A stretch of DNA of 64,000 nucleotides from NCBI GenBank assembly GCA_948567375.1, contig CAOYZS010000005.1:744001-808000 (forward strand), given 5' to 3'. The notes under the pieces were generated by a model. It ran no database searches. It was not told the origin of the DNA and saw nothing but the letters and a program-made list of their open reading frames with translations. Below are positions 3,777 through 44,428 of this stretch, piece by piece. The stretch comes from Lunularia cruciata (Eukaryota; Streptophyta; Marchantiopsida; Lunulariales; Lunulariaceae). Position 1 is the first letter of the stretch. Each line of letters begins with the position of its first letter. The translations under genes were made by a program, and so were the position numbers.

Positions 3777-3940
3777 TTGATCAATAGACTAGGCGAATAC
3801 AACCTGGAATTCTATGAATAGGGCAATGTATCCTGCCAACTCCTCCAAAGTGATTGTCTTCAAAATTTTTAAAATTTTACTTTCAGTCAAGACACATGTT
3901 GACAGTCATCGGGGTTGATGACTCCTTCAATGTGGCTTAC

Positions 3941-16255: not shown

Positions 16256-16560
16256 GTCATCTTGAGTCAAAAGGATGAGAAGAAGAAGGACTATCTTGTT
16301 TATTATGCTAGCCAATAATTATCAATTTCAGGGAAGAACTATTTGACAACTGAAAGAGAAGCACTCGGAATGGTTTATGCTTGCAAGAAATTTTGCCAAT
16401 ACTTGTTGGGATATGAGTTTTTCTTCTATGTTGACCATTACGCATTGCAACATTTGGTCAAGAAGGCAACTTTGTCTAGGCAAATTGCAAGATGGATCTT
16501 GTTGTTACAAAAATTCACATACACTATACAAGTAAGGAAGGGAGCTTCGGATTCAAATGT
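16256..16560 (+). pseudogene. E2 RNase H domain, 5' truncated
   Basis: Starts after the deletion junction, within KKDYLVYYAS, so the first catalytic Asp block is lost. TTEREALGMVYACKKF keeps the Glu, and FFYVDHYALQHLVKK keeps the second Asp. The frame is open from 16343 and continues without a stop into integrase. Confidence 0.8.
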
Positions 16561-17950
16561 GGACTTCTTATCCATGTTAGAAACTCAAGACCAAGACTTG
16601 GAAGTCAATGATTGGTTTCCTCATGAAGAACTGTATCATCTAATGGCTGTTCAAAGTACAAGGTATGCAACAAAATATCACTATCTTCATACATGTCATT
16701 GTCCTAATGGGCTAGACCCGGAGCAGAGGGCAGTCTTCCTCAGGAAGATGGGACCGTTTCAATTAAAACACAACATTTTGTTTAAGATGGGCAAAGATGA
16801 AGTACTTCGGAGATGTTTGGAGGCATACAAAGTCGGAGGAGTCATTGAGTCCTCATACTTGGAAGCACCGGGTGGACACTATGCCCTAAAGAATACTGTG
16901 AAGAAAATCCTTTCAGCAGGGCATTGGTGGCCTATGATGTATAAAGATACATACACCCATATTCAAAGTTGTGATTTCTATCAAAGAACAAAAAAACCAG
17001 CGGCTACTTCCCAATGGCCTTTGAGACCAATTTTGCCCTTGGCTCCATTCAAGAAATGGGGTATTGATTTTGTGGGTCCAATTCAACCAATAACCCAATT
17101 CACAAGGAAGAGGTACATCTTGGTATGCACTGATTATGCTACCAAGATGGTAGAAGCAGAAGCAACTTGGAGAGATGATGCGGAAACAATCACAGAATTT
17201 TTCTTCTGAAACATCATTTCCCATTACAAGTGCCCTCTGGAATTGGTCAGTGATAGGGGAACTCATATTTTGAACTCCATGGTGGAAGCCTTAACCAAGT
17301 ACTTCCAGATAAAGCATCTGAAGACAACTCTTTACAATCCAAAAGCTTATGGACTAATGGAGAAGGTCAATGGATTGTTGTGTAAAATTTTGAACAAGGT
17401 GATAGTCAATTATGCCTACGATTGGGACACAAAGTAACTAGCAGCTTTGTGGGCATACAGAACAACTGAAAATATTACCACCAAGCAAACTCCATATTTC
17501 TTGACATACGGATTGCATCCCATACTACTAGTTGAATTTGAAGTACTATCATATTGGGTTCTTTGCAAGAATGATTGTCGGAGGAAGAAAGCCAGGATCT
17601 TTGGATCCATCAACTGATGTGGTTAGAAGAGAAAAGGGACAATGCAATGAAAACCACAAAGGAAGTACAAGAACAAAAGAAAGCCAGCCATGACAAGAGA
17701 ATCAAGCCTGTGGCTGTTCAGGAGGGTGATTTGGTGTTGTTATATGACAATTGCCAAATATTTTTTCTAGGCAACTGCATTTAAGGTGGATGGGGCCATA
17801 TCGTGTTATGCACATATATGCCAATGGATCTATTCAACTTTCAAACCTAGAGGGAAATCCGTTTGCCACTTGAGTAAACGGGTGGAGAGTTCAAAATATT
17901 GGACCAGGACCCGACGTTGTACAAAGAACCAGTTTTTGGTGTTCGTGGGG
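16560..17950 (+). pseudogene. E2 integrase, best preserved family A copy
   Basis: From 16343 to 17209 a frame of 288 codons runs through RNase H into integrase. Visible are the zinc-binding region (YHYLHTCHC near 16690; SCDFYQR near 16975, where the second Cys of the CxxC pair is Phe), the first catalytic Asp in WGIDFVGPI (about 17065), VCTDYATKMVEAEAT, then after a stop at 17207 the second Asp in LVSDRGTHILNS (about 17250) and the Glu in GLMEKVNGLL (about 17360). The C-terminal part (about 17450-17950) has frameshifts. No chromodomain follows before the PPT. Confidence 0.85.
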
Positions 17951-23918: not shown

Positions 23919-24590
23919 TCCACCAACACTCCTTGAGCAAGAACTCATGAGTATAGCCAATCTACTCCTGGAAATCAAGCTTGAAGTGATAGAGACATAG
24001 TTTGGAGACCAATATTGTCTCCATAACTCAATCTCCTCCAAATAAGCTCTCTTGAACTCATGGTAGTCATCCATCGGTGGAACCTCTAAATGCTGAAACA
24101 ACCCCTTCAATGCCATGAAGGGTGTAAACAAAGTCAGGTTTTGCATTTGCTACAAATCACACCAACTATCAAACTCTTGGATGAAGTCATCCAACTCAAT
24201 GATACCCACCATACTAGAGTAACACCTGGGGCCTTTGGAGGCCCTATAAATCTCATCCATGTCCCACAACAACAGTGTAGACACGCCAAATGCACTCTCA
24301 ATTGAATCAGTTCTTGTGTCAAACTCCAACTCAGAGTCAATCTCCTCCCTCATTGGGACCTGAGATATAGGCTGATACAGAGCGCCACTCCAAGTAAATC
24401 CACTACATACTATAGGGCTAACTCTGCTAGAATCCCCAAAGAACTCCGTCATGACAAAGTAACCGCAATTGCAACCACAAACTAGAACCACCAAACGTAA
24501 CCTCAAACCGCAACCACATGTACTCCACCAAGTGCCAACACCAACTAAACCCCACCAAGTGCCAAAACCCATGGAACACCACATACTAAT
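23919..24590 (-). pseudogene. Family B gag, N-terminal part
   Basis: Matches residues 1 to about 200 of the intact gag at 42252-43856: TEFFGDS, YQPISQVPxREEIDSELEFDT, GxIELDDFIQEFDSWCDL, then (after a stop near 24150) LTLFTPFMALKGLFQHLE and ELWRQYWSPNYVSIT. The frame is open for 144 codons (24584-24150). It is interrupted at 23919 by the E3 LTR in the Ser/Gly-rich linker. Confidence 0.8.
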
Positions 24591-25672
24591 GTAACTCTAA
24601 CTGAGATAAGTACACTAGGGGAAAAGACGACTTGTAATTTGCCATCACAACACGTACTCTCATGGTTTGCAAGTCATCACTTCCTACCTCACCAAGGAGA
24701 AACAAAGGTAGTCAGACTAGTCATCACTCCAGCCTCACTACCGAGAGCACACCAGAGCACCAATGCTCTAAAGTCAGGGCACCTCACACAAACATGGTGC
24801 ACAAACAAGAAGTAGAGAATGGAAGGAGTCCAATCACAAGAAATCTAAAAAAAAACCCTCCATATCATAAATCAACATGGGACTGACTCTACCACCATTT
24901 GGCATTTGATATAAGAGAAGTTTGTATCTACATCCTAAGCTACCAAGATCACCAAGAATGGGATCAAATTGCCTCTCCTAGTCAAAGCTACAAGTGTATA
25001 GATAATAGTGGCATAGTCACTAGGACAACAAGTGAGGGTGGACCAGTTGGCTAGAGCACCAATCTAGGAACAAGAGATCTAGGTGTCAAACCTGTTGCGC
25101 ACAATCTAGCAAGATGGGCAGATTTTGCCAAATAGTGACCAAGATCTACTCTAAACTAGCTAGCCTCATGCCAACAAGCTGGCTTGCTGGCCCTTTTAGG
25201 CCTTCATAGCCTCTCATAGCCCACAACCCTATGCTTAGAAGCCTCTAAACACCAAGTAAAGCCTTTCTTCTTGCCACTTTGAACCCTCTCCAAATCTAGC
25301 AAAACTCCTCCAAATCTGGCCAGAATTTGACATAAACCTAAATTTGGCTAACCGCCAAATCCTCCGCTAACTCTTCACTCAAGCAAAATTGAAAAATAAG
25401 GTTTCTCCAAATCATAAATTCACGAGGATAGGTTCATAACTCCACCTTCAATTTTACTTTTTGAGCCCAACTTGCAATAAATTGGTCATGTCTTCACCTC
25501 TTGAGCTCAAAATCACAATCATTCCTCAAAATTTGCTTCTTCTTTGTTTGAAAATTGGCCAACACTCCATCTCCCTTACTGCCAAATCTGCATCAAGCAA
25601 TGAGCTTCTGCACACTAGGGAAAAACTGAATTGTGATCAAGCTACCAACAATCCACCGAGCTTGGATACCAC
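24591..25672 (-). other. Family B leader between PBS and gag
   Basis: Non-coding leader of about 1.1 kb, homologous to 41057-42251 (there on the plus strand). It contains a tRNA-like segment in antisense (25031-25100, plus strand), a near-perfect palindrome (25170-25191) and short purine-rich repeats (about 25290-25340). No conserved protein frame is seen. The primer-binding candidate TGGTATCCAAGC reads on the minus strand from 25672. Confidence 0.65.
25031..25100 (+). other. tRNA-like (SINE-head-like) segment, copy 2
   Basis: Reads like a tRNA: the box A-like TGGACCAGTTGG, then a D-arm and anticodon-arm-like stretch, then the box B-like GTCAAACCT, about 45 bp apart. The same segment is in the other copy at 41724-41793 (opposite strand). 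It lies antisense to gag in the leader. Either a captured tRNA or SINE head, or convergence on tRNA-like structure. Confidence 0.45.
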
Positions 25673-26123
25673 TAACACTCATAGTTTCTGCACCCAATTT
25701 CCCTCTAACTTCACTTCTATTATGTACTCAGATTGTTTACAACACTTGAGTCAAGTCAAGTCAAGTCAACTCAGATCAGTATTTGATCTATCACTCTATA
25801 AACTGTGGACAACTAAGCACTGATTACAGTCAAGCCACACCCACTCTAGCTAAGAGAATCTAGGTGACGCTTGCTGGCCTTTGTCCACCATAGCCAGGAA
25901 CTCAAAGGCTCAACATCTGAGAAGAGCGCTCTCTTGAGCTGCACTTTGAAAGTATACCCCTGGACTCGAGCTAGGTCTAGGCCCCACCATGTAATCAATA
26001 TCCAAACACAAAATCTGACCATCGGAAAGTAGTCTATGAGATACTACTAAAATACCTCTAACTACTATCATTGCAACTCCAATGTCCAAGCAATCTACAT
26101 GTGACACTACAAATGGCATGACA
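25673..26123 (-). repeat. Family B 5' LTR, copy 2
   Basis: Minus strand TGTCATGCCATTTGTAG at 26123. It aligns through most of its length with 34793-34344 and 44424-44018. It contains a (TCAAG)n microrepeat at about 25747-25765. After CAATCTGAG (about 25730) it differs from the methyltransferase copy's 3' LTR, which has an unrelated 105-bp end there. The inner boundary is set by the putative PBS and is uncertain by tens of bases. Confidence 0.7.
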
Positions 26124-27559
26124 TGAGAGTGAAGGTGAAGATGAAGTCCAACAGTCAATTGATGAAGGAGAGGTAGAAGATGACAAGGAGTTCCATGTGG
26201 CAATTGATTGTATGGAAGGAGGAGATGGCCCTTGTTTGGAGTAACCCATAGAGGAGATGGACAAAGAACCAAAGAAAGTCATCCAGAAGAGAGTAAGATT
26301 GAAAAGGTTATTGCAAGCTGCACCTACAGGTCTTAGCCAAGTGAATGAAGAAGAAGCAAGCTCGGAAGGAAGGCATTGAAGAGTCGATGGAGGCAAAGTC
26401 CAAAGACCAAGACAAAGAAGAAGACTTTGATGGGGTGGAGTACTTGTCACAAATTGTGGGTTTGTTGTTGTTATTGTTGAACAAGAAGAGGAAGGAGATA
26501 TAGAAAGATCATCTAGAGGTGAAGAATGAGTTGTAGGTGATGAAGTATTTGATTGAAGAAGCAAGAGAATTGAAGGAGAGGGTAACCCAAAGGGAAGAAG
26601 AAGCTGAAGAACTTTGAGTGGAGGTAGTCTTAAGGAAGAAGACAATAGAGAATTTGCAAGAGAGTTTGATCAGTGAGGAAGAGAGATGAATGGTCAAGCC
26701 AAAGAGTTGAAGGAACAGAAAGTGTTGATCAAGAAGATGAAAAGTGAGGTAAATGAAGCTTGTATTGAAAGCATATATGTGAAGGTGATGGCGGCTGTGA
26801 TGGAGCAGGAGTTAGAGAGCCTGGAGAAGAGTGTGGTAGGGAAAGATCAAGCATGGTAGAGAAGGTTAGTGGTCTGACACCAAGAGGAAGAAAGATTGAG
26901 AATTCTGGTAATAAGTGCTAAGAGGCAAGTACTCAGTATGTGGAGGAGAAGAAGATGCTAGCAGCCGAGTACAAAGATGAGTTAAAGATGTATAGAGAAG
27001 ATATGAAGGTAGAACAATCTGAGGGTATGCATTAGAGTCGGTAGGAGAAGTTGTTGGGAGAATGAGAGCAGTGTTGAGCATAGAAACTGAAGGGAAGTTG
27101 GAGGAAGCAAGATTGCATGAACTGAAGTTGCTTGTGCAAGAAACTCGGAAGAGGAGAGCAAAGGATGTAGATATTAACAATCTTTTGATTTTTTTGAGAG
27201 AAAGAGTAGATAGGAAGATGATTGAGGTAGGAGATAATGTAAGTATGAGATTATACTTAGTCAATTTAGAGTTAAAGAGACTTTAGAGTAGTGTGAAGGA
27301 AGATAAAAAAAGTCCAAAGTAGTAGAAGTAGGAGTAGGAGTGCAAGTGTCTTTGGATCAGTTATCTAAGACATTAGAGAAGAGTGGGTCCAAAGATAAAG
27401 AGATGGAAAGGGTATCCATCAGTGAAATTATAGTTCAGGGTGAAGAAGTCATAGAAATAGTGAAGGCATTAGTAGAAGAAGATAGACCCAAAGAGAGAAG
27501 TGATAGGAGGATCATCAGATTTGGAGGCCTATGTCAATGTTGACATCAGATCAGAGTAA
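26124..27559 (+). pseudogene. ORF3 fragment, acidic and coiled-coil half
   Basis: Begins in the acidic segment (EGEDEVQQSIDEGEVEDDKEF, about 26130-26190), then EFHVAIDCMEGGDGPC, and continues through coiled coil (26700-27530; open blocks at 27062-27286 and 27340-27543). It ends at a TAA at 27557-27559. Many stops. The N-terminal half lies beyond the nested insertions to the left. Confidence 0.6.
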
Positions 27560-29858: not shown

Positions 29859-32800
29859 TGTGACAACCCGGCAAATATCAATTTTGCGGTAATCGGGTAA
29901 GTAAAGTTTGTTCCTGTAGAGATACGAGTCAGAAATGTCCAAATACAAAGTCAAACAGTAACATGTAGTTCTTCTTGGTTGCCTCTTTAATCTCTCAAGT
30001 AGAAACCACACCCAAAAGAGAGTAACAAGCACTGACTCGTAGTCTTGTCACGAATTTACACTCCTTAATCACAAATCCTTCAATTTTTTCCAAACTATCT
30101 TGATTGTGATGATTAAGGCTCTCCCAAAAATGGCACTTCACTGCAAAATGACTTCGCCTCAAAATTGTGTTCCATCCCTCCATTGAAGGCACAACTTCCT
30201 TGATCAAAATTGATTCACATCAACCTTGCATTGCACTCACAAATGCAGAATACTACCAACACTACAATTCCTCTCAGATCTATCAAGGCATTGCTTTGAC
30301 TGCACTTCACTCAGGATCAAACACACCGAATGAACATCAAGGCTGTGGAATCCAACATCCAACAAGCACCTTGACTTGCACTTTGAATTTCTCCAAACAC
30401 TCACAAACACAATTACAAAGTTGATACTCGGAATCAAGCTCAAGCGATGAGCACTGCTTCACAGCAGTTCGCTTTATCTATTCTCAGAAATAATGAGCAC
30501 TAAACAACAATTGACTGCGAATGCCACTCTTAAGTAGTGAATCAATTGACAGTTCTAACAACTATACCGTTTCTACAACAACCTTTCAACCAACAACCTA
30601 AACCCTAAACCCTCAATTTAATCAACAAGGCATTCATCTCAGTGTCTTTTGCCTATCTTCGCCTCGTCTCCTGCACCAGCAACTTCAACTCGTGCAGTCT
30701 TGCTTCTTCAATTCAAACGCTGGCCTCTGTACTTAACATCGCGTTCATTTGGAGAACAATCTCCTTCAATGGCTCCACTCTGGTTTTCCTTTCATGCTCT
30801 CGACTCCGCTTCAAATTCGGCTTTCACCGTCTCCTTCTGCACAACCTTCTCCTCCTGAGTACAAAGTAACTCTCGTAATTTCTCTTCTTCTCTATATCAC
30901 GCAGCCAACTCTCTTTGCCAGAGTTGCTTCTTCTCTTCCATACTCTCCCTCACTCTATCAATCTCCTGCTCCTTCTCTGCTATCCTTGCCATAGCATGGA
31001 TAATTTCTACTCTTGAATCAGCAAATTGCTGCTTCAAGATCTCATATTCAGCGACTTGTCTTTCCCTTGCTATGTCACTCTTCCTCGCAAGATCCTCTCG
31101 ATAGTTCACTTCCCTCTTCAGGTCTTCAACTACCTAACTTCTCTCTACTGCCTCCGCTCGCAATACTTCTCTCTCCTCCTCACCTCGGGTTATACTTCTC
31201 TTCAACTCTGAGTTCTCTTCTTCTAATCTCAATACGACCTGCAAAATAGTCTTCACCTCTGGACAAGTCTACTGCATTTCTCTCTTCTTGTGCTCCAACT
31301 TCACCAGCAATGGACACACAATTTCCTGCAGGTACTCCACTCCGTTCCTCGCACCCACTTCTTCCTACAGAGACATCTCCTTCCTTACCTCTTCTTCACC
31401 CGATACTCGCCTTCTCCGCTGCAATCTTTGTATTGGGATTGAGGCTTTGCTTCTCAAGCTTTCTCCTACTTCTTCCTTCACTTTACTCGGCCCCACTTCA
31501 CACTTTGCCTTATGTCTTGAGCGAACCCCTTGCTGTACTGCGATTTTCTTCTCTTCTGGCACCGGTACTTCGTCTTCCAATGGCAAATTGTCTTCGGCCT
31601 CCAACTCGGCTGGCACTTCTTCTTCTTCTTTGTTAGCCGCTGGCACCGATGTCATCTCTCCCCCTTCTTCACTGTCACTGCTCATATCTCCGCTCTGTAG
31701 TGTCAGCTCAGGTTCCTCCTCATGTTCTGAGTCTTCCATCTTGAGCTCGGCCTCGCCTTCTGAGTCTTCATCTTCCGACTCAATTACCACCATACTTTGC
31801 CTCGAGTTACTTTGCTGCATCTTCCGAGGTTTCTTGCTGTCTTCGGCTTCTCCTTGCCGACTCCTCTTCTTCGTTGGGGTACTCACTATGACCTCCACGT
31901 TCTTCCCTGTCTTCGCGTAGTAGTCGTCCGTGCTCCGGATTTGGAGAATGTACTGCTGCTCCTCGACATCGACCTCTTTTTGCACATCAAGATGGAAATG
32001 CGACACCATCTGAGTCCGCTCCGCCGAGTTCAGTAAATTGAGCCCGAGGTAGAAGTGTGCTGCAAACAGCACGATGTAGTGTGGAGGTGATTTATCCCGC
32101 AAATTCCACACCATCTGCCTCGTTCTCCCGTGAAAACACCTCGCCCAATTGATAGGTTCTCCAGCAAACAACTTATGGAAGAACACCGCTTGGTGTTTCA
32201 TCACATAAGTCGTTCTCTCCGGCTTCAAGATTGCCATGAGAGCACTCACGATCCCTCTCTTCACTGGATCCTTGTAACTCTCAACTTTGTACCCATTCTT
32301 TGTTCTTTTCAACGAGAAGGCATCTCTCACCTCCTGCGTCTCTTGAGCTATCTCTCCTTTCCCCAAGAACGTGGCTCCTTGCTCCGAGCATGCCTCCTTC
32401 CCGAGTACGAGTCTCCAATCCGACTCTATCCAGCGAGCTAGATTTCCTCTCTTCCCTTCTTCCTCTGGTCCATCGAGACACTTACTCTCGATGATTTATG
32501 TCATGAGTCCTGGAAAACTCACGTTCCAGTTCCATGCCAGAAATGTGATCCAAAGTCGGCTCAAGACTTCGATCCGCGCTATCACATCTAACCTCCAAAT
32601 CGCATGATTTCTCACTGTGAATTCGGAGTTCTTCTTCCCTCCTCCCATCTCTTCTACCTTCTCACTTTCTCTTGATTTCACTCTCGTGACTTCTCCCTTG
32701 TGCACTAACACGATCCCAACTCTATTTCCCTTTCCACAATCACCTGCAAGACGACTTCTCAACGGCGAAGGAAAATTACTTGACATTTTGTCGTTGCAGT

Positions 32801-33224: not shown

Positions 33225-33972
33225 CTCAATTAGGACTACTAGTACCCATAGCTACCAATCTTATGGCCACATAGATCAATAGATAGATAGATGATATCTT
33301 TGTAAAGTTAGAATAATTAGAGAACCTTCACCTTGCATAATAACCTCAAGCAAGGAATGTGGTAAACATTTTTACTAGGAAAGACATCTCTTGTATACAT
33401 TGCTTGTATGGGGACACACTAATACTCATTGTGCTACTATAGATATTCCAAATTTATTTATGCACTATGAAAGGTATGGACATGCAATAGCCAACTATAG
33501 ACACTTCAATGGCATCAAGAACTAAATGAAGAAAGAGCATACCCCTTGGACACTAACTTGCATCATAATAATATCAATAGTTGTGGGACTCATCCTTTTG
33601 AAGAGGAAATGGACAAGTTAGAGGATCTCTTAGACTCAAAATACATTATCATAGTGCAAAGAAAATCAGTATGGCAACCAATGCCCAAACAAGCCTACTT
33701 GTTTCAAATCCGAATCCAGAGCACATACCATGGCCCAATGTTTAGATTTAAGAACTTCATAACTCAAGCATGAGGCACTCCCATACCAAAGAAAGCACAA
33801 AATCATGTTGGTCCTAATGAGAACATGCATTTCATCACCATAAAGGAAGGATCCACTACAAGAGAGGCCCTTCTAAATGGCATAGGTGTTGTTACAAAGG
33901 CAAATGTGTTTCTCACAACATGATCTCACACTTATGAACCACCTTCTTAAGCAGCAGGTCTAATATAAAATA
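33225..33972. other. Unidentified sequence right of solo LTR
   Basis: A plus-strand frame of 75 codons (33546-33773) is the longest; it has no motif I recognise. Continuous with 29191-29858 before the solo LTR insertion. No repeat family assigned. Confidence 0.35.
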
Positions 33973-34190
33973 TGTGACAACCCAACAAGTATCACTTTTG
34001 TAGTAATCAACAAGTAATCAACAATTCATTTCCATAGAGATAGGAGTCAGAAATGGTCAAATACAAAGTAAAATAGTAACCAAACAGTTCTTCTTGACTT
34101 TTTCTTTAATCTCTTGAGTAGAAACCACACTAAAAAGAGAGTAACAAGTGCTCAACTTGCAATCTTGTCATATATTGAAGAAAGCTCAAA
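33973..34190 (-). repeat. Family A LTR 3'-end fragment
   Basis: The plus strand begins TGTGACAACCCAACAAGTATC at 33973, the reverse complement of the family A LTR terminus. It continues for about 215 bp and then breaks off into plus-strand ORF3 sequence near 34190. Confidence 0.7.
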
Positions 34191-34238
34191 GGTATTGCCC
34201 TTGAAGGTATGAAGATTGTGAGTTTAGGATAAGGTACT
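34191..34238 (+). repeat. E5 5' LTR fragment left of methyltransferase element
   Basis: A short piece of plus-strand ORF3 (GAAGAAAGCTCAAAGG and following) aligns with about 19715-19785. It resumes at 44429 after the methyltransferase element. The last four bases, TACT (34235-34238), are repeated at 44425-44428. Confidence 0.65.
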
Positions 34239-34793
34239 TGTCGTGCGTATATACATCGCTACACAACATACATCGCTGTCAACATCATACACTATAAAAG
34301 CACAACTCACACATGAGTCATACATAGACTCTAAAGTGCCACAATAATCAGATTGCTTAACAATTCAACTCAACTCAACTCAGATCAGTACTTGATCTGT
34401 CACTCTATAAACTGCCAACAACTGGGCACTGATTACAGTCAAGCCACACCCACTCAAGCATAGAGAATCCAGGTGACGCTCACCGGCCTCTGTCCACCAT
34501 AGCCAGGAACTCGAAGGCTCAACATCAGAGAAGTGAGCTCTCTGGAGCTCACCTTCAAAACTATACCCCTTGGACTTGAGCTAGCCCTAAAACCCTAACG
34601 GTCCCGCTGACGGCACACTTGACGGTGCAAACGGTGCAAAGTGACGGTGGGCCCCACCGTGAAGTCAGTACCCCAAACACAAAATCTAACCATCGGAAAG
34701 TAGTCCCTGAGAAACTGCTAGAATAACTCTAACTACCATCACTGGAACTCCAGTGTCCGAGCATCTAGATGCGGAACTACAAATGGCGTGAGA
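34239..34793 (-). repeat. Family B 3' LTR (555 bp)
   Basis: Matches the 5' LTR (44424-44018) from TCTCACGCC at 34793 onward and extends past it to GCACGACA at 34239. The final 105 bp (34239-34343) are repeated at 34796-34900. A small CAACT-type microrepeat lies at 34361-34385. The first two terminal bases differ from the expected TG (TC instead). Confidence 0.75.
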
Positions 34794-34795
34794 GC

Positions 34796-34900
34796 TGTCG
34801 TGCGTATATACATCGCTACACAACATACATCGCTGTCAACATCATACACTATAAAAGCACAACTCACACATAAGTCATACATAGACTCTAAAGTGCCACA
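34796..34900 (-). repeat. 105-bp direct copy of the LTR end, next to the PPT
   Basis: Near-identical to 34239-34343 (one difference seen: TAAGTC versus TGAGTC). Reads TGTGGCAC to ACGACA on the minus strand, so it has TG...CA ends of its own, and the polypurine tract lies directly before it. It may be a remnant of a tandem LTR or the true LTR edge. Confidence 0.7.
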
Positions 34901-34912
34901 ATTGCCCCCCTA
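34901..34912 (-). other. Family B polypurine tract
   Basis: Minus strand CTAGGGGGGCAAT directly before the TGTGGCAC repeat at 34900. Six consecutive G in a purine run fits a PPT. Confidence 0.6.
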
Positions 34913-35069
34913 GCTGGCGGTTAGGTCCCTCTAACTCCAGATAGCCATCTACTCTAAGTATATGGTATACCCTCTAATGGGCAAAGATCAGGAGGCCGGG
35001 TGCTATGGAGCCCCATCGTTAGTCGCCTGTCTGCAATCTATACCATATAAAGAATGAACTAGCTATAGG

Positions 35070-35455
35070 TCAAGTACATCTAGGACATAACCACTGTCCT
35101 TGAGGAACCACCGTGAGGGGAGGAGTCATACATGCCATATGCCATCCTCTCGAACAGCTATCACACACTAACATAGTAGCAGCTCCACCAGAAGAGCCAC
35201 ATAACATACACCTCAAGCCTGCACGTACAAGTGCCAAGCTTGGGTCCATAGTACCATCAATGTTTGGGAGGTGGCATGGCGCACAATTGTGCACATGATC
35301 CTTCCAAACAACACCATCACGTCCTTCTAACACAAGGACTCCAGATGGCAAAACCTCGCGCACTCTCAAGATAGTGCGGCCTGTAGAAACATCAAGTGTC
35401 GTCGGTGCTGTCTACTGTAGATATACATAGTCGCCTGGATGAAATCGACGGATCG
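35070..35455 (-). pseudogene. Integrase C-terminus with PHD finger (polyprotein end)
   Basis: From about 35455 the frame reads RRFHPGDYVYLQ, a stop (TAG where CAG is expected), then TAPTTLDVSTGR and the open 99 codons at 35369-35070. These end in a complete C4HC3 zinc finger: C54-C57, C69-C72, H77-C80, C95-C98 (CMLC, CDSC, HMAC, CPRC). A Trp stands two residues before the last Cys pair, as in PHD fingers. PHD fingers bind the histone H3 tail, often at K4. At an integrase C-terminus it sits where chromoviruses carry a chromodomain, so a role in choosing insertion sites is likely. A +1 shift near 35455 separates it from integrase. Confidence 0.85.
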
Positions 35456-36600
35456 AGGGTCTATAACCTCCTCCTCGAATGCATAGCGTAAAGTATCTCT
35501 ATGCTGAGCAATCGCCAAGTTCTCGAAGGCCATCGGCATTACTCTCCGAAAGATCTCTGCCCGCTGAGAACATGCGCTCATCCATACATCAGGGTCATCC
35601 AAGTCCAAAACTACAGTAGCATCTCGACGAATGGCTGCAGGTAAATCTGGATCTCATCCATAGAGTAGAAAGTATGGAGAGAAGGATGCTAAGGAGGCTT
35701 GCCGGCTGAACCGATAGCCCATGGCCAACCAAGGTAACTGGAGATCCCAATCTCCCAAGTGGCCTCTCTGCAAACCATACTTTCACAATCCTCTCTTCAC
35801 CGTCTGAACCACTCTCTCTGCTAAGCCATCTGCCTCAGGGTGATCTCGGGATGTAGTACGATGATCAATCAAAGCCTTGTCACACAAGACCTGAAACTCT
35901 CCCAAGAACTCTGTACCCTGATCAGTCAAAACCTCAGCTGGTGCACCAAAATGACTAAGAACTCGATCCAGGAACGAGTAAGCTGTCCCTTCACTAGACT
36001 TGTCAGGAAGTGCCACCAACTCAATCCACTTGGAGAAGTGCTCCACCATCACCAAAACATACCGATGATGTCTCACAGTCAGCGGTAAAGGTCCGGCGAA
36101 GTCCAAACTCCAACGGTAACCCAATCCCATGATAGGTAATGGGTGTAACTGTGGCGTAGGAGCATTGAATGATGCTCTAACTCGGTCACAAACCACACAT
36201 CTGGCAACAAACTGCTGTACCTCGGTCTGCATACCGCGCCACCAATAATGACTCTGGAGTAAGCTATATGTACGCTTTACTCCAAAATGTCCTAGCTCCT
36301 CATGAGCATGACGGACCAACTGTGGTCTCTGTGATGGAAGTGGTACTACTCGCACTCTACCATCCTCCCATACACGCAAAAGGTGTCTACCCTCCAATCT
36401 GAACCGTCTGGCTCGCTGAAGAACACGGTCTCTCTCCTTGGCCCCAACTGTGCCACCCACAACACCAGTGCAAAGATAGTCCATCACGAAGACATCATCG
36501 TGAATGTCTCGCTGAACTATACCAATATCTTCACTCTCTGGATCTATGACCTCAATAACTCCTCCTGTATGCGTTGAAAGAGATACCACCAAAGTCTCTG
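35456..36600 (-). pseudogene. Family B integrase
   Basis: Within the 348-codon frame at 36829-35783: zinc-binding H174/H176-H181 (RHAHEELGHFG) with C211 and C214 (CVVC); the catalytic triad D243 (SLDFAGPL), D303 (LTDQGTEF) and E338 (DGLAERV). All are present. The frame continues past a TGA at 35783 (probably CGA before) through LPWLAMGYRFSRQAS, a second TGA near 35647, then DPDLPAAIRRDATVV and the C-terminal helices up to about 35460. Neighbours are RNase H upstream and the PHD finger downstream. Apart from stops nothing essential is lost, so inactivation looks recent. Confidence 0.88.
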
Positions 36601-37246
36601 CAAATATACACAGAAAGGCCGATGCATGCCAACCTCGCACCATCTCCTCATCTGTCTCACCATGCCAACGTGCTCCGGTCTGATCCTGCTGGCTGGGACA
36701 TGGGTTTCTACTCAACCCATCTACATCACGGTTCACCACTCCAGGTCTGTGAACAACCGTGAAATCATACTCCTGTAAAATCAGAGCCGATCGTGCAAGC
36801 TTCCCTGAAAGCTTGTCGGACTCCATCAACCACTTCAGCGGCTGATGATCAGTGATGAGAGTGAAGGGGTTACCAAATAGGTAACATCAGAAATGTGCTA
36901 CTGCCCAAACTGCTGCCAAGCACTCTCACTCATATGAACTATACTTCGCCTCCGCTGAATTGTTGGAGCGACTAGCATAGGCCACCACAAACTCCTTCTC
37001 CTCATCATCATGCTGGGTGAGCACAGCTCCAAGCTCCAACATACTCCAATCAATGTGAACCTGAAATGGTCGTCCCCTGATCGGTCTCCTCAAAATAGGA
37101 GCAGATGTCAACCTCTCCTTGAGCTCTACAAAAGCTCTCTCCTGCTCATCTCCCCACCACCACTCCTGTGTAAGCTTGGTCAGCTTCGTCAAGGCCTTGG
37201 CAATGGCACTAAATCCTCTAACATAGCGGCGATAGAAGTTCGCCAA
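36601..37246 (-). pseudogene. Family B RNase H and connection
   Basis: In the same frame as RT and integrase. After the AFLGLANFYRRYV block (37246 onward), the RNase H domain has FQVHIDWSMLELGAVLTQ (Asp in the usual place), FVVAYASR, AKYSSYE (Glu), then stops at 36926 and about 36883, TLITDHQPLKWLM (Asp) and VNRDVDGLSRNP, the typical end block. Both stops are TGA; the second could come from CGA by C-to-T. Confidence 0.85.
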
Positions 37247-37258
37247 CCCAAGGAATGC

Positions 37259-38170
37259 TCACACTCTGCTCACATCCGTAGGCCGAGGAATACATGCAAT
37301 AGCCTCCACCTTGGTTTGCTGGACACCAAGTCCTCCGGGGTAGATAGTGTGACCCAAATACTCAACTTGCTCATGGAAGAACCTACACTTCCCAGGATGT
37401 AATTTGAGTCCATGAGATCTCAACCTCTCAAACACCTCCAACAACTGTCGCTCATGCTCCTCCACAGTAGTGCTATACACCAAAATGTCATCAATATAGC
37501 ACTGAGCAAAATCCAGTCCAGCTAGGATCCTATCCATGACCCTCTGGAACTCAGCAAGAGCATTCTTCAACCCAAATGGTAAGAACCTCCACTGATATAA
37601 CACATCCTTGCCGTGAGGATCAATAGCCCAAAATGCTGTCTTGGACTTATCCTCCTCCCTGATCGGCAACTGATGATATCCCGCTCGAAGATCCAAAGTA
37701 CTGAAGACCTTTGCATGCCCAATCGCATCAAAAATCTCCTCCGGTGTAGGCATGGCATACCGATCAGCCCTGGTCTGTCGGTTGATAGGACGGTAATCTC
37801 CACACATCCGCCTATCTGTATAGTTGCCATGCATATCTTTCTTGGCTGGCATCACTGTCGCTGATGCATACTCTCCATGTGAAATCTCCACCAAACCAGC
37901 CTCAAAAAGGTCACTACTCCGGCTCTGAATCAATGTCCTCTCCATCTCACTATATCGATAAGGACGTCGGAAAACAGGTGTGTCGCTAGTCAGCTCAATC
38001 CGTATACCAGGTCCCTTCAGAGCACCCAAATCCTTCATACTGAAGGCAAAACAACTCGTGTGACTCCTCAAGAACCTCCAAACCCTCCGTCTTTCCTCTC
38101 CAGTAAGCTTGGGTCCAAGATCTAGCTCCCAAGTATCCTCTGTAACTGTAGTAGGAGTGGAAGACGTACT
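37259..38170 (-). pseudogene. Family B reverse transcriptase
   Basis: Open for 270 codons (38071-37259), and open upstream to the TAG at 38180. RT blocks in order: IELTSDTPVFRRPYRY, ATVMPAKKDMHGN, RMCGDYRPINRQT, motif A FSTLDLRAGYHQ with D127, FLPFGLKNALAEFQRVMDR, motif C YIDD at 192-195, LKLHPGKCRFF and YLGHTIYPGG. All catalytic Asp residues are present. It ends at a TGA where the family has Arg (RAFLGLANF), explained by CGA to TGA. The methyltransferase is directly upstream in the same frame. Confidence 0.9.
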
Positions 38171-38179
38171 GACTGGCTG

Positions 38180-39514
38180 CTATATTGGGCCCTTGGGAGC
38201 AATGGTGTCATGCTCCCAACCACTAGAGGTCCCAACCTCTGTGTGAAAAACTCCCTCCACTCTGGCTGCAAGCTCCATACGTCCTCTGGCTGCATCCCAT
38301 GTGGACCAAGGGTGTAATCCAAGTAGCCCACGCTCACCTGGATGGACTCCAAGTAGACCACTCTCCCTAGTAGCTACTGGATGTGTCCCAAGAATACCAT
38401 GTCTACTCGGTCCATCGCCCCCAGCATGTGCCTGAATCGTCTCGATAGGCACAGGGCTCACAAGTGTCCGAGTGGTGATGCCTATCAAGCGCATCCTACG
38501 CTGCTCTGCCAAACCAAGGTTCACAATCCAGGTCAAACAGTTCAGGTCCATAGCCTGACCTAACACTTGACGCCTGGATGCCTCTGACACTGCTGGAACA
38601 GCGGTAATACCAGTGCGAAAACCCATCACCCGCTCTCTCTCATCAGCATTGGGCTCCACCAACTGCTGTAACTGTGAGTCCCAAACAAGTCCAGGTCCTC
38701 CCTCTCGAAAAGCATGAGAGCCTGGGAAACTCATGAGTGTGGGAAATGCAGCTCTAGGCTGTCCAACTAGGTTCACCACTGCCATAGGTGACCTATCAGC
38801 CACTACCACTGTCTGAGACTGACGCCCAACATCCAAGATATCATCAACAAGGATGTGGTCTAGTCGCTGAATCCCATCATAACTACGCTGTAGAACCTCT
38901 CTGGGTAAAAGGTTCGTCCACCAAAGATGAAGACGATGAGCCCGTGATCCCACTCTGGCTGCATCTAACAATACAGCAGGTCCCATCCAATAATGGACCT
39001 GATGTGTACTCGCCACCACTCTAGTGCGAGAATCACCCATCAATGGAACGTTCTCCAAAAGGTAAGCTGGAGAAACAGACTGATGAACCTGGAGATGTCG
39101 TAGTATCCGTAACATCTCCCAAAACACACCAGAACGAGGATCCTGAAGACCCAAACCGCGGCCCGCACGTGTATGTCCCTGACATGGCCATCCAGAAATC
39201 ACCAAGTGAATAGGCCCATGTCTCTCTAGGTCATACGCCCCCAATAAGGAAATGTCTCCTGGTAAGGCCTTCTGGTAACCTCTGACTGCTGACATCGGTA
39301 ATAACTCCGGAGACCGATAGGCCAAGTGTGCCACATGATGTAGAGAGACTCGCCTAGCAGTCTCATCTCTCTCTACATACAAGTACCTCTGTACTCGGAT
39401 ACCCGCCTGTAACACCACAGCTAGTCCGGTGCTGATCCCACCAAACAACTCCAATAGGCATATCCCCTCTGCTGGATACTGCCAAGCAATGAGTGTGGTA
39501 TCCAGAGGTGTCAA
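38180..39514 (-). CDS. Cytosine-C5 DNA methyltransferase domain of retrotransposon polyprotein
   Basis: Would transfer a methyl group from S-adenosylmethionine to C5 of cytosine in DNA. The 444 open codons carry the motifs in normal order: motif I ICLLELFGGISTGL (18-31), motif II YLYVERD (44-50), motif IV with the catalytic Cys in GWPCQG (C111), motif VI LLENVP (E154-N155), motif VIII GSRAHR (189-194), a short target-recognition region (about 205-290), motif IX-like DERERVMGF (291-299) and motif X LGQAMDLN (318-325). The order is not circularly permuted, so it is not DRM-type; ENVPLM and the RSGVFWEMLRIL block recall DNMT3 and bacterial enzymes. The C-terminus has three GLLGxHP-like repeats (about 383-412). 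No stop lies in the domain; a TAG (CAG expected) ends it at 38180. In frame with protease upstream and RT downstream. Confidence 0.92.
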   Translation of the reverse strand: MTPLDTTLIAWQYPAEGICLLELFGGISTGLAVVLQAGIRVQRYLYVERDETARRVSLHHVAHLAYRSPELLPMSAVRGYQKALPGDISLLGAYDLERHGPIHLVISGWPCQGHTRAGRGLGLQDPRSGVFWEMLRILRHLQVHQSVSPAYLLENVPLMGDSRTRVVASTHQVHYWMGPAVLLDAARVGSRAHRLHLWWTNLLPREVLQRSYDGIQRLDHILVDDILDVGRQSQTVVVADRSPMAVVNLVGQPRAAFPTLMSFPGSHAFREGGPGLVWDSQLQQLVEPNADERERVMGFRTGITAVPAVSEASRRQVLGQAMDLNCLTWIVNLGLAEQRRMRLIGITTRTLVSPVPIETIQAHAGGDGPSRHGILGTHPVATRESGLLGVHPGERGLLGLHPWSTWDAARGRMELAARVEGVFHTEVGTSSGWEHDTIAPKGPI

Positions 39515-39787
39515 AGCAATCGCCTCTAGAGGCTCATCCTCACACTCATCCCCTTATGGTACGAAGGCTCCACTCCAAGCCTGCTGCACCAACTGATCTG
39601 CATGCTGTTGCAATGGCTCCTCTGAACTCCACAATGGAACATCCAAGGTGGATGGAACAATCCCACTCGTACTCCATAGACGAGTGATCTCCTCTGGTAC
39701 TGGAGTATCCTCTGCATGGGCGTTCCCCTCCAACAAGTCACCAGGCCAAGTAACTGCACCGCTGAAAGCTAAAACTGATGCTGCCAT
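39515..39787 (-). pseudogene. Linker between protease and methyltransferase
   Basis: In the same frame as both neighbours. Open from 39787 to a TAA at 39556-39554. The duplicated segment at 43849-44015 has TCA (Ser) at that codon, so the stop is a later point mutation in this copy. The sequence is acidic (GDECEDEPLEAIALTP). No domain recognised. Confidence 0.7.
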
Positions 39788-39796
39788 GGTCCTGGA

Positions 39797-40681
39797 CTAT
39801 AGTGAGCCAAGACTGCCACTACTGAAACGTACTGGTAGGCGACATACTCGTCCCTCACCAGACTGCCAACCAGGTCTATAAGAGGCTATCTCCTCCCAAT
39901 AGTCAATACTGAAACCCATAGGGTATAACACTGCTCCTCCAACTAGCACATCATAGGACTCAGCTATCGTCGCAATAGCTTGAGCTCTCACCACCAAGCT
40001 ATCAGTCGGATGACCAGGCTGAACCTGGACAACAAGCTCCCCACGTGTGATGTACTGTGCCGAACCACCACCTAGAGATGTCTGGATCTGAAATGGACAC
40101 CTCTCCACATCGGTCTTCCGTAACTCCAGACCAACAACTGCAGCCTTCCCCAACATAAGGGGCTGCGCACCAGAGCGTAACAAGACTCTCTGTGGTGTAT
40201 AGACCTTCCCTGAAGGTCCCACCAAACGAAAGATCCCCCTCTGGTTATCCAATAGGACAACACCAGGTGTAAACCGCGCTCTCTCAAAGGCCGGTCTAGC
40301 TGGCAACTCCTCCAGTCTAGCCGCTACTGCCTGCCATAAACCACTGGTCGCTGAACGGATCCCATGCTCCTCAACCAAGTCAGCTCCACTACCAACCACC
40401 TCTGCTCTAGTAGTAGGAACTGCACCATCCCTACTCTCACACAACGTGGCAGCCAACCGAAACACTGGGGCTGGGTCAACTCCCAATGTAAACATGTCAC
40501 TGGCTGAAAATAAAGGATGCCGCATAATCAGCTGAGCCGCCCCCAACATCATGCTAGACTCCGTATGTGTAGTAGCAGGTGGCTGACTAGCAGGTACTCC
40601 ATCAGGTACTCCATCAGGTACTCCATCACCACCTACCACACTTGCACTGGGACGTCTAGGAACCATGGATGTCGTCTGCAA
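39797..40681 (-). pseudogene. Family B retropepsin-like protease with altered active site
   Basis: 294 open codons in frame with the methyltransferase and RT, ending in TAG (39799-39797). The N-terminus has a GVPD repeat (21-30) from a 12-bp tandem repeat. The fold is recognisable by VLLRSGAQPLMLG (167-179) and YDVLVGGAVLYPMG (243-256), matching the two halves of gypsy proteases. The catalytic Asp expected in (D)SGA is Arg169, so this protease should be inactive unless another copy helps. The identification rests on these two blocks and on position. Confidence 0.7.
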
Positions 40682-41010
40682 TGCCTCAGATAGCGTGAAA
40701 GACTGTGGAAGAAGACGGAACTACATATCGAAAGGGTACAAAACCCGCTCAGGAATGTATGGATGTATGCACTTCCCCGTCAACCAGTCCCACCTCGTCG
40801 TATCCAGGGGCTAACGAGGGCACCTCACTTATTCCCTGGCTGAAGGGCCTGTCTTCCGTGAACGGGCAGATTGTCGGGGGAAGCAGGGGAGGAAGTGGAA
40901 TTGCCTGTACGAGTAGCAGCACCGGACTTCCCCCCTTGCATGTCATGCACGGTGGGCCTTCCAGTGCCCCTATGACTCCTCTCCTCAGTTCTCCGACTGC
41001 CAGGATGCCG
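40682..41010. other. Family B gag-pol spacer next to inversion breakpoint
   Basis: About 330 bp between the protease frame and the inverted gag block. Minus-strand frames (41013-40825, 40946-40749) are short and Ser/Pro/Gly-rich; none is supported. It probably encoded the gag-pol junction before the inversion. Confidence 0.4.
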
Positions 41011-41056
41011 CATGTGAAGTCAGGGGGAAATCGGGTGCAGGAACGTTGAGTGTTGG

Positions 41057-41070
41057 TGGTATCTCCAAGC
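41057..41070 (+). other. Possible primer-binding site of family B
   Basis: TGGTATCTCCAAGC; in copy 2 TGGTATCCAAGC. The first seven bases equal the plant initiator tRNA-Met PBS (TGGTATCAGAGC); the rest does not match well. Tentative. Confidence 0.4.
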
Positions 41071-41632
41071 TCGGTGGATCGTGATAGCTCGATTCAGGTT
41101 CTGTGTTTCCCTAGTGTGCAGAAGCTCGTGTAGTTGATGCAAATTTGGCAGTTAGGCGGACGGTGTGCGGAAGCGCTGGCCAAATTTCGAGCAAAGAAGG
41201 AGCAATTTTTGAGCAGTGTTCTGATTTTGAGCTCAGGAGGTGAAGGCAGGACCAATTTGCTGCGAGTTGGGCTCAGAAAGTGAAATTGAAGGTGGAGTTG
41301 GAAAGCTCTTCTCATGAAATTGTGATTTGGAAAAACCCATTTTGTCAATTTGGCTCAAGTGGAAAGTTAGCGGGGGATTTGGCGGACATCCATCTTTAGG
41401 GTTTACGTCAGATTTTGGGCCAGAATTGGAGGAGTTTCGCTGTTTGGCCAGATTTGGAGAAGTTTTGCTAGTTTGGAGGAGTTTCGCAGATTTGGAGAAG
41501 TTTCACCAATTTTGGAGGAGGTTCGAAGTGGCAACAAGAAAGGCCTCATTTGGCTGAATTTCGGCGTTTAGAGGCTTCGAGGCTTCGAGGCATAGGGCTG
41601 TGGGCTATGAGAGGCTACGAAGGCCTAGAAGG

Positions 41633-41654
41633 GCCAGCAAGCCAGCTTGCTGGC
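41633..41654. other. Perfect palindrome in family B leader
   Basis: GCCAGCAAGC, CA, GCTTGCTGGC: a 10-bp stem with a 2-nt loop. Copy 2 has the same hairpin at 25170-25191 with one mismatch. Could be an RNA packaging or dimer signal; untested. Confidence 0.6.
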
Positions 41655-41723
41655 GTGAGGCTAGCTAGTTTAGTGTAGATCTTGGTCATTGGTTGGCAAA
41701 ATCTGCCTTTCTTGCTAGATTGT

Positions 41724-41793
41724 GCGCAACAGGGTTTGACCCCTAGATCTCTTGTTCCTAGACTGGTGCCCTAGCCAACTGGTCCACCCTCAC
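41724..41793 (-). other. tRNA-like (SINE-head-like) segment, copy 1
   Basis: On the minus strand: box A-like TGGACCAGTTGG, an anticodon-arm-like part, box B-like GTCAAACCC, with GGGG/CCC pairing in the T-arm position. Same module as 25031-25100; antisense to gag in both copies. Confidence 0.45.
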
Positions 41794-42251
41794 TTTTTGT
41801 CATAGTGACTGTGCCACTGTTATCTATACACATGTAGCTTTGGCTAGGAGAGGCAGTTTGATCCCATTCTTGGTGATCCTGGTAGCTTAGGACTTAGATA
41901 CAAACTACTCTTATGTCAAATGCCAAATGGTGGCAGAGTCAGTCCCGTGTTGTGTTATGAGATGGAGGGTTTTCGTTTAGATTTCTTGTGATTGGATCCC
42001 CTCCATTCTCTGCTTCCTGTTTGTGCACCATGTTTGTGTGAGGTGCCTTGACTTTTGAGCGTTGGTGCTCTGGTGTGCTCTCGGTGGTGAGGCTGGAGTG
42101 ATGACCAGTCAAACTACCTTTGTTTCTCTCCGGTGAGGCAGGAAGTGATGACCTGCAGACCGTGAGAGTGCGTGTTATGATGGCAGGTTACAGGTTGCCC
42201 TTCCCTTAGTGTAGTTATCTCGGTAGAGTTACATTAGTGGGTGGTGTTTAG

Positions 42252-43856
42252 TTGGTGTTGGCACGTGGTGGTGTTGGCACTTGGTGGGGTACTTGCGGTT
42301 GCGACTTGCGGTTGCAGTCGGTGGTTCGGGTTTGCTGTTGCAGTTACGTGGTTACGACGGAGTTCTTTGGAGATTCCAGAGGAGTTAGCCCTGCAGTACG
42401 CAGTGGGTTTACTCGGAGTGGTGCTCGGTATCAGCCTATATCTCAGGTCCCAGTGAGGGAGGAGATTGACTCTGAGTTGGAGTTCGACACAGGAGCTGAT
42501 TCAGTTGAGAGTGCACTTGGTGTGTCCGCACCGTTGTTGTGGGACATGGACGAGATTTATGGGGCCTCCAAAGGCCCTAGGCGTTACTCTGGTACAGTGG
42601 GTACCATTGAGTTGGATGACTTTATCCAGGAGTTCGATAGTTGGTGTGATCTGCAGCAGATGCGGAACCCGACTTTGTTCACACCCTTCATGGCATGGAA
42701 GGGGTTGTTTCAGCACTTGGAGGGTCCACCGATGGATGATTACCATGAGTTCAGGAGAGCTCATTTGGAGGAGATTGAGTTATGGAGACAGTATTGGTCT
42801 CCACACTATGTCTCCATCACTTCAGGCTCAGTGGCCAGGAGTAGATCGGCTGTACCTACGAGTTCTAGCTCGAGTAGTGTGGGTGGAGCTAGTGGAGGTG
42901 CACTAGCTGGAGATAGTGCTACTACGAGTGGAGGTACCGCTGCAGGAGGTGGTGTGGTACCGGGGTTTAACCCCATGGTTGAGTTCTTCCTATGTTTGAG
43001 GCAGAACTACCAGGGAGTGCGGACTGACAAGCTGAGGAGCTTGCAGGAGTTCCAGCGGAAGGCTGGAGAGAGCCTACGCGAGGCATACACTCGCATGAGG
43101 CGGCTGATCAGTTTCACTCAGGAAGTTACTGAGGCCCAGGCAGTCCAGTTTTGGTATGGGATACTGGACAGGGAGTTGCAACGTAGAGTTCGTGATGCTA
43201 CGTTGTTGCAGGCTACTTCGCCCACTTTGGCAGTAGTCTTTGGTTTGGCTGAGCGTATTGAGCTCAACATGGTGGAGGAGAGAGTGGTGACAGCTGGATT
43301 TGGTAGAGAGACCTCATCCACGGTTGTGACTTCTTCTAGAGTGCAGCAGAGTGCACCACGCCCAGTTGGTTTTCGAGGACAGGGTGGACAGCCCAGATCC
43401 TATGGAGTGAGTGGAGGGCCTAGTGGAGTTAGACCCTTACCCTCATTTTTGGGTCAGCAACAGCCAGTGAGTGGTGGTGTTGCTTGTTGGACTTGTGGTG
43501 GACCTCACCATAGGAGAGAGTGTACTCAAGGCAGCGGACCTGATACCTCTGGTGCATCACAGCCAGCACAGAGGCAGTGTGAGCACTGCCATAGATTTGG
43601 TCATACTAGTGACCGGTTTTTTGACCTACACCCGGAGTTACGGAGTGGTAGGGCTGCTATGGCAGGTAGTAGAGGAGCTCCAGTTCATGGAGGACGAGGT
43701 GGTAGAGGTGGTGGTAGAGGATCTACACCTAGTAGGGGTGCAGTACCTGCCCTTACTTCTGACACAGCTATGGCTACTCGGATTGAGCAGTTGGAGCAGA
43801 GATTGGCTAGTATGGCTATTGCTCATAGGAGATCAGATTCGGGTACCCGCCTGTAA
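42252..43856 (+). CDS. Family B gag, intact frame but inverted relative to its pol
   Basis: 534 open codons. The first 35 codons may be leader rather than protein; copy 2 reads through the same region, so the true start is unsure. The conserved body runs TEFFGDS (36-42), EEIDSELEFDT (70-80), IELDDFIQEFDSW (119-131), a Ser/Gly linker (190-235) and the gag domain NPMVEFFLCLRQNYQGV to QFWYGILDRELQRRV (240-313). Knuckle 1 is CWTCGGPHHRREC (412-424). Knuckle 2 (CEHCHRFGH, 443-451) has Phe where the last Cys belongs. An RGG tail (477-492) and a short coiled coil (510-522) follow. The frame ends just inside an antisense methyltransferase fragment. In copy 2, gag has the LTR's orientation; here it is opposite. 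Confidence 0.85.
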   Translation: MVLARGGVGTWWGTCGCDLRLQSVVRVCCCSYVVTTEFFGDSRGVSPAVRSGFTRSGARYQPISQVPVREEIDSELEFDTGADSVESALGVSAPLLWDMDEIYGASKGPRRYSGTVGTIELDDFIQEFDSWCDLQQMRNPTLFTPFMAWKGLFQHLEGPPMDDYHEFRRAHLEEIELWRQYWSPHYVSITSGSVARSRSAVPTSSSSSSVGGASGGALAGDSATTSGGTAAGGGVVPGFNPMVEFFLCLRQNYQGVRTDKLRSLQEFQRKAGESLREAYTRMRRLISFTQEVTEAQAVQFWYGILDRELQRRVRDATLLQATSPTLAVVFGLAERIELNMVEERVVTAGFGRETSSTVVTSSRVQQSAPRPVGFRGQGGQPRSYGVSGGPSGVRPLPSFLGQQQPVSGGVACWTCGGPHHRRECTQGSGPDTSGASQPAQRQCEHCHRFGHTSDRFFDLHPELRSGRAAMAGSRGAPVHGGRGGRGGGRGSTPSRGAVPALTSDTAMATRIEQLEQRLASMAIAHRRSDSGTRL

Positions 43857-44015
43857 CACCACAGCTAGTCCGGTGCTGATCCCACCAAACAACTCCAATA
43901 GGCATATCCCCTCTACTGGATACTGCCAAGCAATGAGTGTGGTATCCAGAGGTGTCAAAGCAATCACCTCTGGAGGCTCATCCTCACACTCATCCCCTGA
44001 TGGTACGAAGGCTCC
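43849..44015 (-). repeat. Duplicated fragment of methyltransferase 5' part
   Basis: About 167 bp nearly identical to 39406-39572, same orientation, including motif I. It differs at a few bases, among them TCA (Ser) where the main copy has the TAA stop. Joined on the left to gag at an ACCCGCC microhomology and on the right to the LTR at 44016. Confidence 0.9.
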
Positions 44016-44424
44016 ACTCTACTTGATCTGTCACTCTATAAACTGCCAACAACTGGGCACTGATTACAGTCAAGCCACACCCACTCAAGCATAGAGAATC
44101 CAGGTGACGCTCGCCGGCCTCTGTCCACCATAGCCAGGAACTCAAAGGCTCAACATCAGAGAAGTGAGCTCTCTGGAGCTCACCTTCGAAACTATACCCC
44201 TTGGACTCGAGCTAGCCCTGAAACCCTAACGGTCCCGCTGACGGCACACTCGACGGTGCAAACGGTGCAAAGTGACGGTGGGCCCCACCGTGAAGTCAGT
44301 ACCCCGAACACAAAATCTAACCATCGGAAAGTAGTCCCTGAGAAACTGCTAGAATAACTCTAACTACCATCACTGGAACTCCAGTGTCCGAGCATCTAGA
44401 TGCGGAACTACAAATGGCGTGACA
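44016..44424 (-). repeat. Family B 5' LTR, 3' part missing
   Basis: Starts TGTCACGCC at 44424 (minus), next to the TACT target duplication. Matches 34793-34389. It breaks off at 44016, so the last 150 bp or so of the LTR were lost in the inversion event. Confidence 0.85.
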
Positions 44425-44428
44425 TACT

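Follow-up and report, generated by a model that had tools for sequence, protein, structure and literature searches.

The element in the window

The window analyzed here comprises 64,000 nucleotides (nt) of the Lunularia cruciata genome (contig CAOYZS010000005.1, positions 744,001 to 808,000). Between positions 34239 and 44424 it contains a Ty3/Gypsy retrotransposon with TG..CA ends, which carries a cytosine-C5 DNA methyltransferase (MTase). This copy is a damaged, rearranged member of a large, young and very abundant family of the Ty3/Gypsy type. In the normal form of the family, the MTase is the last part of a first open reading frame (ORF1), and a UAG codon separates it from the reverse transcriptase (RT), which starts ORF2. 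We regard as firm, with hardly any room for doubt, the identification of this domain as a real DNMT3-type C5-MTase in a retrotransposon.

The pol domains of the window copy are on the minus strand, and we describe the element from its 5' end. It begins with repeat A1 (X1, 44020-44424, minus strand, including the terminal TG), detected by repeat comparison. A 181-nt piece follows (43839-44019, minus strand), which sequence comparison identifies as a duplicate of the 5' part of the MTase (39395-39575). The leader and gag (41014-43844, with an ORF at 42252-43856) are on the plus strand, inverted with respect to pol; gag gives a weak Pfam Retrotrans_gag match, below the cut-off. Between this inverted block and pol there are 302 nt (40712-41013) which are present in none of the other copies fetched. 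Then come, all on the minus strand, the retroviral-type aspartic protease region (39767-40396), the MTase (38183-39553, 457 open codons), the sequence UAG CAG CCA (38174-38182), the RT (37259-38179, Pfam RVT_1 1.9e-31), RNase H (36926-37258), the end of RNase H with the integrase (35783-36886, H2C2 and rve) and, on the 3' side of the integrase, a PHD finger (35070-35411, Pfam PHD 7.4e-12).

A sequence-only reading of this locus had placed the MTase inside a Pol polyprotein, in one frame with a protease, RT, RNase H, integrase and PHD finger. The domains themselves were recovered: the last four by Pfam, and the protease region by comparison with another copy. The protease piece of this family has no Pfam match, while some relatives do carry Asp_protease_2. 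The single frame holds only in part. The pieces from protease to integrase share it, but it is interrupted by in-frame stops, and the PHD finger is in another frame. An uninterrupted Pol containing both MTase and RT has to be abandoned, as the MTase belongs to ORF1.

The intact form of the element was defined by comparison with other copies in the same genome. Within the stretches compared, the window copy has eight premature stops, two in ORF1 and six in ORF2. A further in-frame stop, at 38180-38182, is the UAG common to the family and does not represent damage. A frameshift precedes the PHD finger, which is in frame within the intact ORF2 of another copy. On the strand opposite to pol, gag also departs from the other copies, in which both are on the same strand (10/10 mapped copies; in one of them only a 35-residue remnant of gag is left).

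The methyltransferase domain

The MTase matches Pfam DNA_methylase over part of the profile, with an E value of 1.8e-7 and 31.4 bits (cut-off 22), and the top match of a PDB search is DNMT3A (E 1.6e-11). Both sequence and fold place it nearest to DNMT3A/B, when compared with DNMT1, DRM, DNMT2 and bacterial enzymes. The C5-MTase proposed from the letters alone is thus confirmed, as are motifs I, IV (GWPCQG), VI (LLENVP), VIII and X, which lie in order in uninterrupted codons. The folded core extends approximately from residue 18 to residue 357, and the tail beyond residue 361 has low confidence. Catalytic positions are nearly invariant in an alignment of 22 sequences. On the other hand, residue 209, in motif VIII, is His in the window copy and Arg in 19 of the 22 rows, so that catalytic activity of the window copy itself is doubtful.

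In the MTase tree, retroelement rows are split from all other rows at 61/79, the host and human rows being fragments only. Matches to the MTase are found in 51 IMG/VR loci, with 26-52% identity over parts of the domain only. A bacterial or phage origin was rejected: the tree, which included four of the IMG/VR loci, separates them from the retroelement enzymes, with a weak split at the root. Accidental fusion with a host gene was also rejected, as separate host-type exons exist in the same genome, both DNMT3-like and DRM. The exons of this kind which we have noted apart from the element are L001 (DNMT3-like, with a PDB match), L002 (DRM) and L004 (DNMT3-like, recognized by eye only).

Copies in the genome

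The genome searched has a size of 565.8 Mb. The best 93 of 15577 first-look MTase candidates were scored, and all of them have at least 96% identity over 456-457 residues. As none of these matches lacks more than one residue of the full length, the presence of the MTase in the element is not due to chance. The best 131 of 40564 RT candidates all have at least 98% identity. Both lists describe the closest copies and say nothing about older, more divergent ones.

Ten copies with long open frames, picked from another list of MTase matches, were mapped. All of them have the order protease-MTase-RT-RNase H-integrase-PHD. In order to avoid selection through the MTase, 20 other copies were hand-picked from approximately the first 40 of the 131 RT matches, excluding copies already read. 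In all 20, RT is immediately preceded by MTase sequence, in three cases over part of 600 bases only.

Written in full, the family has the structure A-[gag-protease-MTase]-UAG-[RT-RNase H-integrase-PHD]-B-A-B; its ends are TG..CA, and four base pairs of the target are duplicated. ORF1 codes for 1428 amino acids when intact, and ORF2 for 1037. A Pfam scan of ORF1 finds no domain beyond the MTase. In intact ORF2, no chromodomain is found by Pfam at E 0.01, and a PHD finger is found instead. A chromovirus identity was rejected, as no chromodomain follows the integrase.

Split repeats and termini

The ends of the element had been taken as similar to long terminal repeats (LTRs) with a TACT target duplication. 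The ends and the duplication were confirmed, but the repeats are not simple LTRs. They are split as A-coding-B-A-B, with A alone at the left end and B-A-B at the right end. In the window copy, the right end consists of repeat B1 (Y1, 107 nt, 34796-34902, found by repeat comparison), an inner B1/A2 junction (34792-34795) which reads GCTC, repeat A2 (X2, 403 nt, 34389-34791, 396/403 identical to 44020-44422) and the terminal repeat B2 (Y2, 107 nt, 34239-34345, 106/107 identical to B1), which is the 3' end of the element. All of these are on the minus strand. The target duplication on the right side (34235-34238) reads AGTA on the minus strand, TACT on the plus strand, and pairs with that on the left side (44425-44428).

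Both ends were seen in the window copy and in seven of the ten mapped copies, and the right-end B-A-B in nine of the ten. Target duplications of four bases are found at six of the seven copies checked, the window copy included; L015/L016 has none. The inner junction reads ..ACGACA-GC-TGTCACG.. in four of the five other copies read, GC being followed by the TG of X2. It looks like two element ends joined, as in a two-end circle junction, with two additional bases. The element thus combines split repeats similar to those of DIRS elements with an rve integrase, with TG..CA ends and with target duplications of 4 bp. A true DIRS-type element, with a tyrosine recombinase, was rejected because of the integrase and the duplications.

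The UAG codon between methyltransferase and reverse transcriptase

The ORF1 stop is located exactly at the start of RT, with no change of frame between ORF1 and ORF2. All 50 copies read have TAG as this stop (11/11, 19/19 and 20/20 in three sets). An exact 35-base pattern of the MTase/RT junction is found at 784 sites genome-wide, and 765 of them have TAG. Among the 30 copies in the sets of 11 and 19, the TAG is followed by CAR YYA in 29, the exception being L037. The available text of PMC2754532 describes CAR YYA on the 3' side of UAG as essential for readthrough in tobacco mosaic virus (TMV), which takes place at about 10% in vivo. We should note that these copies are young relatives of each other. 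Their counts demonstrate a UAG in the source elements, but do not demonstrate that it is maintained by selection.

Proteins of other species appear to give outside support for the stop, as many of them end soon after the MTase core: 55 amino acids after it in Marchantia P0121 and P0122, 57 in Calypogeia P0001, and 53-55 in the partial Marchantia proteins P0125, P0126 and P0130. Ten proteins of 1228-1451 amino acids (P0132-P0134, P0136, P0137, P0139-P0143) end 93-137 amino acids after the core. The MTase is probably made together with Gag, and RT and integrase by readthrough of the UAG. For the Lunularia family, we think it quite likely that the stop is leaky.

Relatives and their two arrangements

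Protein searches find relatives in Calypogeia fissa, Marchantia polymorpha, Riccia sorocarpa, Sphagnum and Closterium. Klebsormidium is perhaps another host. In K. nitens, protein KFL_003910030 combines a weak match to the protease with a later stretch of 46 residues, 57% identical to the end of the MTase, and extends hardly any further. This protein has no Pfam match, and its gene model lacks most of the MTase core.

Two arrangements are found. Type I has the MTase between protease and RT, and type II has it between RNase H and integrase (RT-RNase H-MTase-integrase-PHD), as found in 12 + 5 proteins. The type II proteins, among P0152-P0169 and P0198-P0210, come from environmental sources. Two trees unite type II in one clade, that of the MTase with 99/99 and that of RT-RNase H with 100/98; the integrase tree does not resolve the relation between both types. 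In the RT-RNase H tree, the MTase elements are apart from two other Gypsy elements of the Lunularia genome (100/100). All tree rows were found through the MTase, so members of the clade without it would be missed. The simplest reading of these trees would be one old capture of the MTase and one later relocation. The association between MTase and retrotransposon is family-wide, and probably ancient.

Compared with four Marchantia proteins, identity is 67-70% for the MTase, 68% for RT (and 82% over 74 residues), 63-67% for Gag and 47-62% for the protease. Compared with P0148, it is 46% for the MTase, the same for RT, 20% for Gag and 28% for the protease. It may be argued that the MTase is under selection, because, compared with Marchantia, it is conserved about as well as RT, a little better than Gag and better than the protease, with nearly invariant catalytic positions.

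Other sequences in the window and elsewhere

A related fragment with leader, gag and repeat A, 79-88% identical, is found at 23919-26124 of the window. It belongs to a second subfamily and keeps the usual relative orientation of gag and repeat A. Two other Gypsy-type elements are located at 1671-3788 and 16319-17368, and the MTase query matched nothing beside them. A repeat of about 110-210 nt, at 33967-34179 and at ten other window sites on both strands (72-81% identity), might be a short non-autonomous element. At 31138-32495, long ORFs of 260 and 376 amino acids overlap on opposite strands, neither of them with a Pfam match. No tRNA genes or Rfam families were found in the window. Outside it, the plastid-like contig L029 (G000 C74) has a matK match with two stop codons, which could correspond to RNA editing or to a pseudogene. 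The reading frames beside matK are presumably chlB-like and psbA-like.

Possible function of the methyltransferase

The explanation that we favour, to which we give somewhat better than an even chance as a whole, is that the MTase would be made with Gag and RT-integrase-PHD by readthrough, and that the MTase would methylate the element's own cDNA or its new insertions. Gag-protease-MTase would be the main translation product, and a minority of ribosomes would read through UAG CAR YYA to give RT-integrase-PHD. The MTase would then enter particles at Gag-like amounts and methylate cytosines in the cDNA just synthesized, or in the copy once inserted. The new DNA would in this way look like host chromatin that is methylated already, which would help a high-copy element to survive. 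The PHD finger might bias integration or chromatin contact. Differences of C to T between copies are found in 4.3% of CG, 3.2% of CHG and 0.7% of CHH positions, so the DNA of the element is probably methylated in the germ line, with a plant-like CG and CHG pattern.

Several observations weigh against this explanation. The methylation footprint is not proof of self-methylation, because host enzymes suffice. The Klebsormidium enzyme gave no detectable activity in yeast, a result that its authors call inconclusive in the available text of PMC5890265. Among 12 young copies, pN/pS is 0.45 for the MTase and 0.54 in the +1 frame, values which are uninformative on selection, and also on the Ka/Ks under 0.2 taken as a mark of KnitGypsy-Dnmt3 MTases. 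RNA structure downstream of the UAG is no better than in shuffled sequences (z 0.56). Furthermore, MTase and RT are continuous within a single protein in P0147, P0148, P0151, P0173 and P0175. The same is true of 20 Closterium proteins (P0170 plus 19 others), which have no stop. The gene models of Marchantia P0124, P0127, P0129, P0131 and P0135 and of Sphagnum P0149 also extend into RT or beyond, although these could be splicing artefacts of the models. Because some relatives run on into RT, the stop is a feature of part of the lineage, including the bryophyte branch.

Four other explanations may be considered. The MTase might modify, instead of the cDNA, host chromatin at the sites of insertion or in their vicinity, which the PHD finger would read, so that a heterochromatic neighbourhood protects or targets insertions. 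The DNMT3-type fold agrees with such a role, as does a PHD finger placed with the integrase in ORF2, but the MTase is on the Gag side, in a different ORF from integrase and PHD, and we consider it unlikely. The UAG might be a plain stop, ORF2 being translated by internal initiation or from another RNA, with no readthrough product. The lack of downstream structure fits this idea, and in young copies the 765 of 784 sites show only that their sources carry UAG. Against it are the TMV-type context after the stop, the common frame of both ORFs, and Closterium, where the same domains form one protein; a plain stop seems rather improbable. A little less probable still is that the domain acts mainly on RNA, or is a nucleic-acid-binding extension of Gag, DNA methylation being secondary. 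Its fusion to Gag-protease, the seat of RNA-packaging functions, would suit this role, but motifs IV, VI and VIII are kept, and DNMT3A/B outscore the tRNA methyltransferase DNMT2 (E 2e-8 to 4e-8). Finally, a one-off insertion or pseudogene capture of the MTase into a single element, suggested by the broken and rearranged window copy, is refuted by its presence in the ten mapped and 20 RT-chosen copies and in relatives from liverworts, Sphagnum and Closterium, and its probability is practically nil.

Self-methylation of cDNA or new copies is the candidate function we favour for the MTase. A wider history may tentatively be suggested, although we hold it to be possible rather than probable. A single capture of a DNMT3 by a Gypsy lineage would predate the separation of streptophyte algae and land plants, and the lineage would have kept the enzyme ever since. 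In bryophytes, the leaky UAG would provide MTase at Gag-like amounts in every particle, so that insertions arrive methylated, and a sister branch would have moved the domain once, between RNase H and integrase.

Comparison with known systems

Elements of this kind are already known. As the sequence-only reading had stated for Symbiodinium and Klebsormidium, they are described in the available text of PMC5890265 (de Mendoza et al. 2018): LINE and DIRS elements that bear DNMTs in the former, and KnitGypsy-Dnmt3 in the latter. PMC12344493, in the text available, cites streptophytes and dinoflagellates as hosts, while that of PMC6338049 states that such elements are absent from land plants. The Marchantia, Calypogeia, Riccia and Sphagnum proteins contradict this absence for bryophytes. 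No report of MTase retrotransposons in bryophytes was found in the literature searched, which did not extend to supplementary files or subscription papers; nor did the papers searched give any instance of the UAG, of the PHD finger, of the type II arrangement or of hosts among land plants. Neither "Marchantia" nor "PHD" appears in the main text of PMC5890265. The family resembles KnitGypsy-Dnmt3 and is not restricted to a single species, with relatives in several bryophytes.

With this family, one may ask why retroelements take up DNMTs at all: a selfish element of very high copy number, with open reading frames, keeps an enzyme of its own silencing mark. From the arrangement around the UAG, more MTase than RT is expected, in an excess large enough to be measured. 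The question may be tested in Marchantia polymorpha, which has relatives of the element, and for which methylomes exist and five DNA methyltransferases of three classes are described (available text of PMC5784723).

The closest known system is KnitGypsy-Dnmt3 of Klebsormidium nitens, which shares with our family a Gypsy-type RT, RNase H and rve integrase, a DNMT3-related MTase in the polyprotein and, according to the legend in PMC5890265, DIRS-like A-coding-B-A-B repeats. The database protein KFL_003910030, which may be related to it, is not known to belong to the published copies. In contrast with KnitGypsy-Dnmt3, the MTase of the Lunularia family is not in the ORF of RT. It is in ORF1, ahead of the UAG and in the same frame, and would be joined to RT only by readthrough. 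Land-plant relatives, a very high copy number and the PHD finger are further differences.

SymbioDIRS-Dnmt3 of Symbiodinium also has a DNMT3-type MTase in a retroelement polyprotein and split repeats, and its enzyme is active on CG in yeast, as stated in the available text of PMC5890265. Unlike the Lunularia family, with its rve integrase and 4-bp target duplications, it has a tyrosine recombinase. The catalytic domain of metazoan DNMT3A/B is the top match by sequence and fold, but its motif IV is GSPCND instead of GWPCQG, and the Lunularia MTase is fused to Gag and protease in a polyprotein. Homologous MTase, RT, integrase and PHD finger are found in type II elements. These differ from the Lunularia family in the place of the MTase, which in type II follows RNase H and precedes the integrase, and in the Lunularia family follows the protease and precedes RT.

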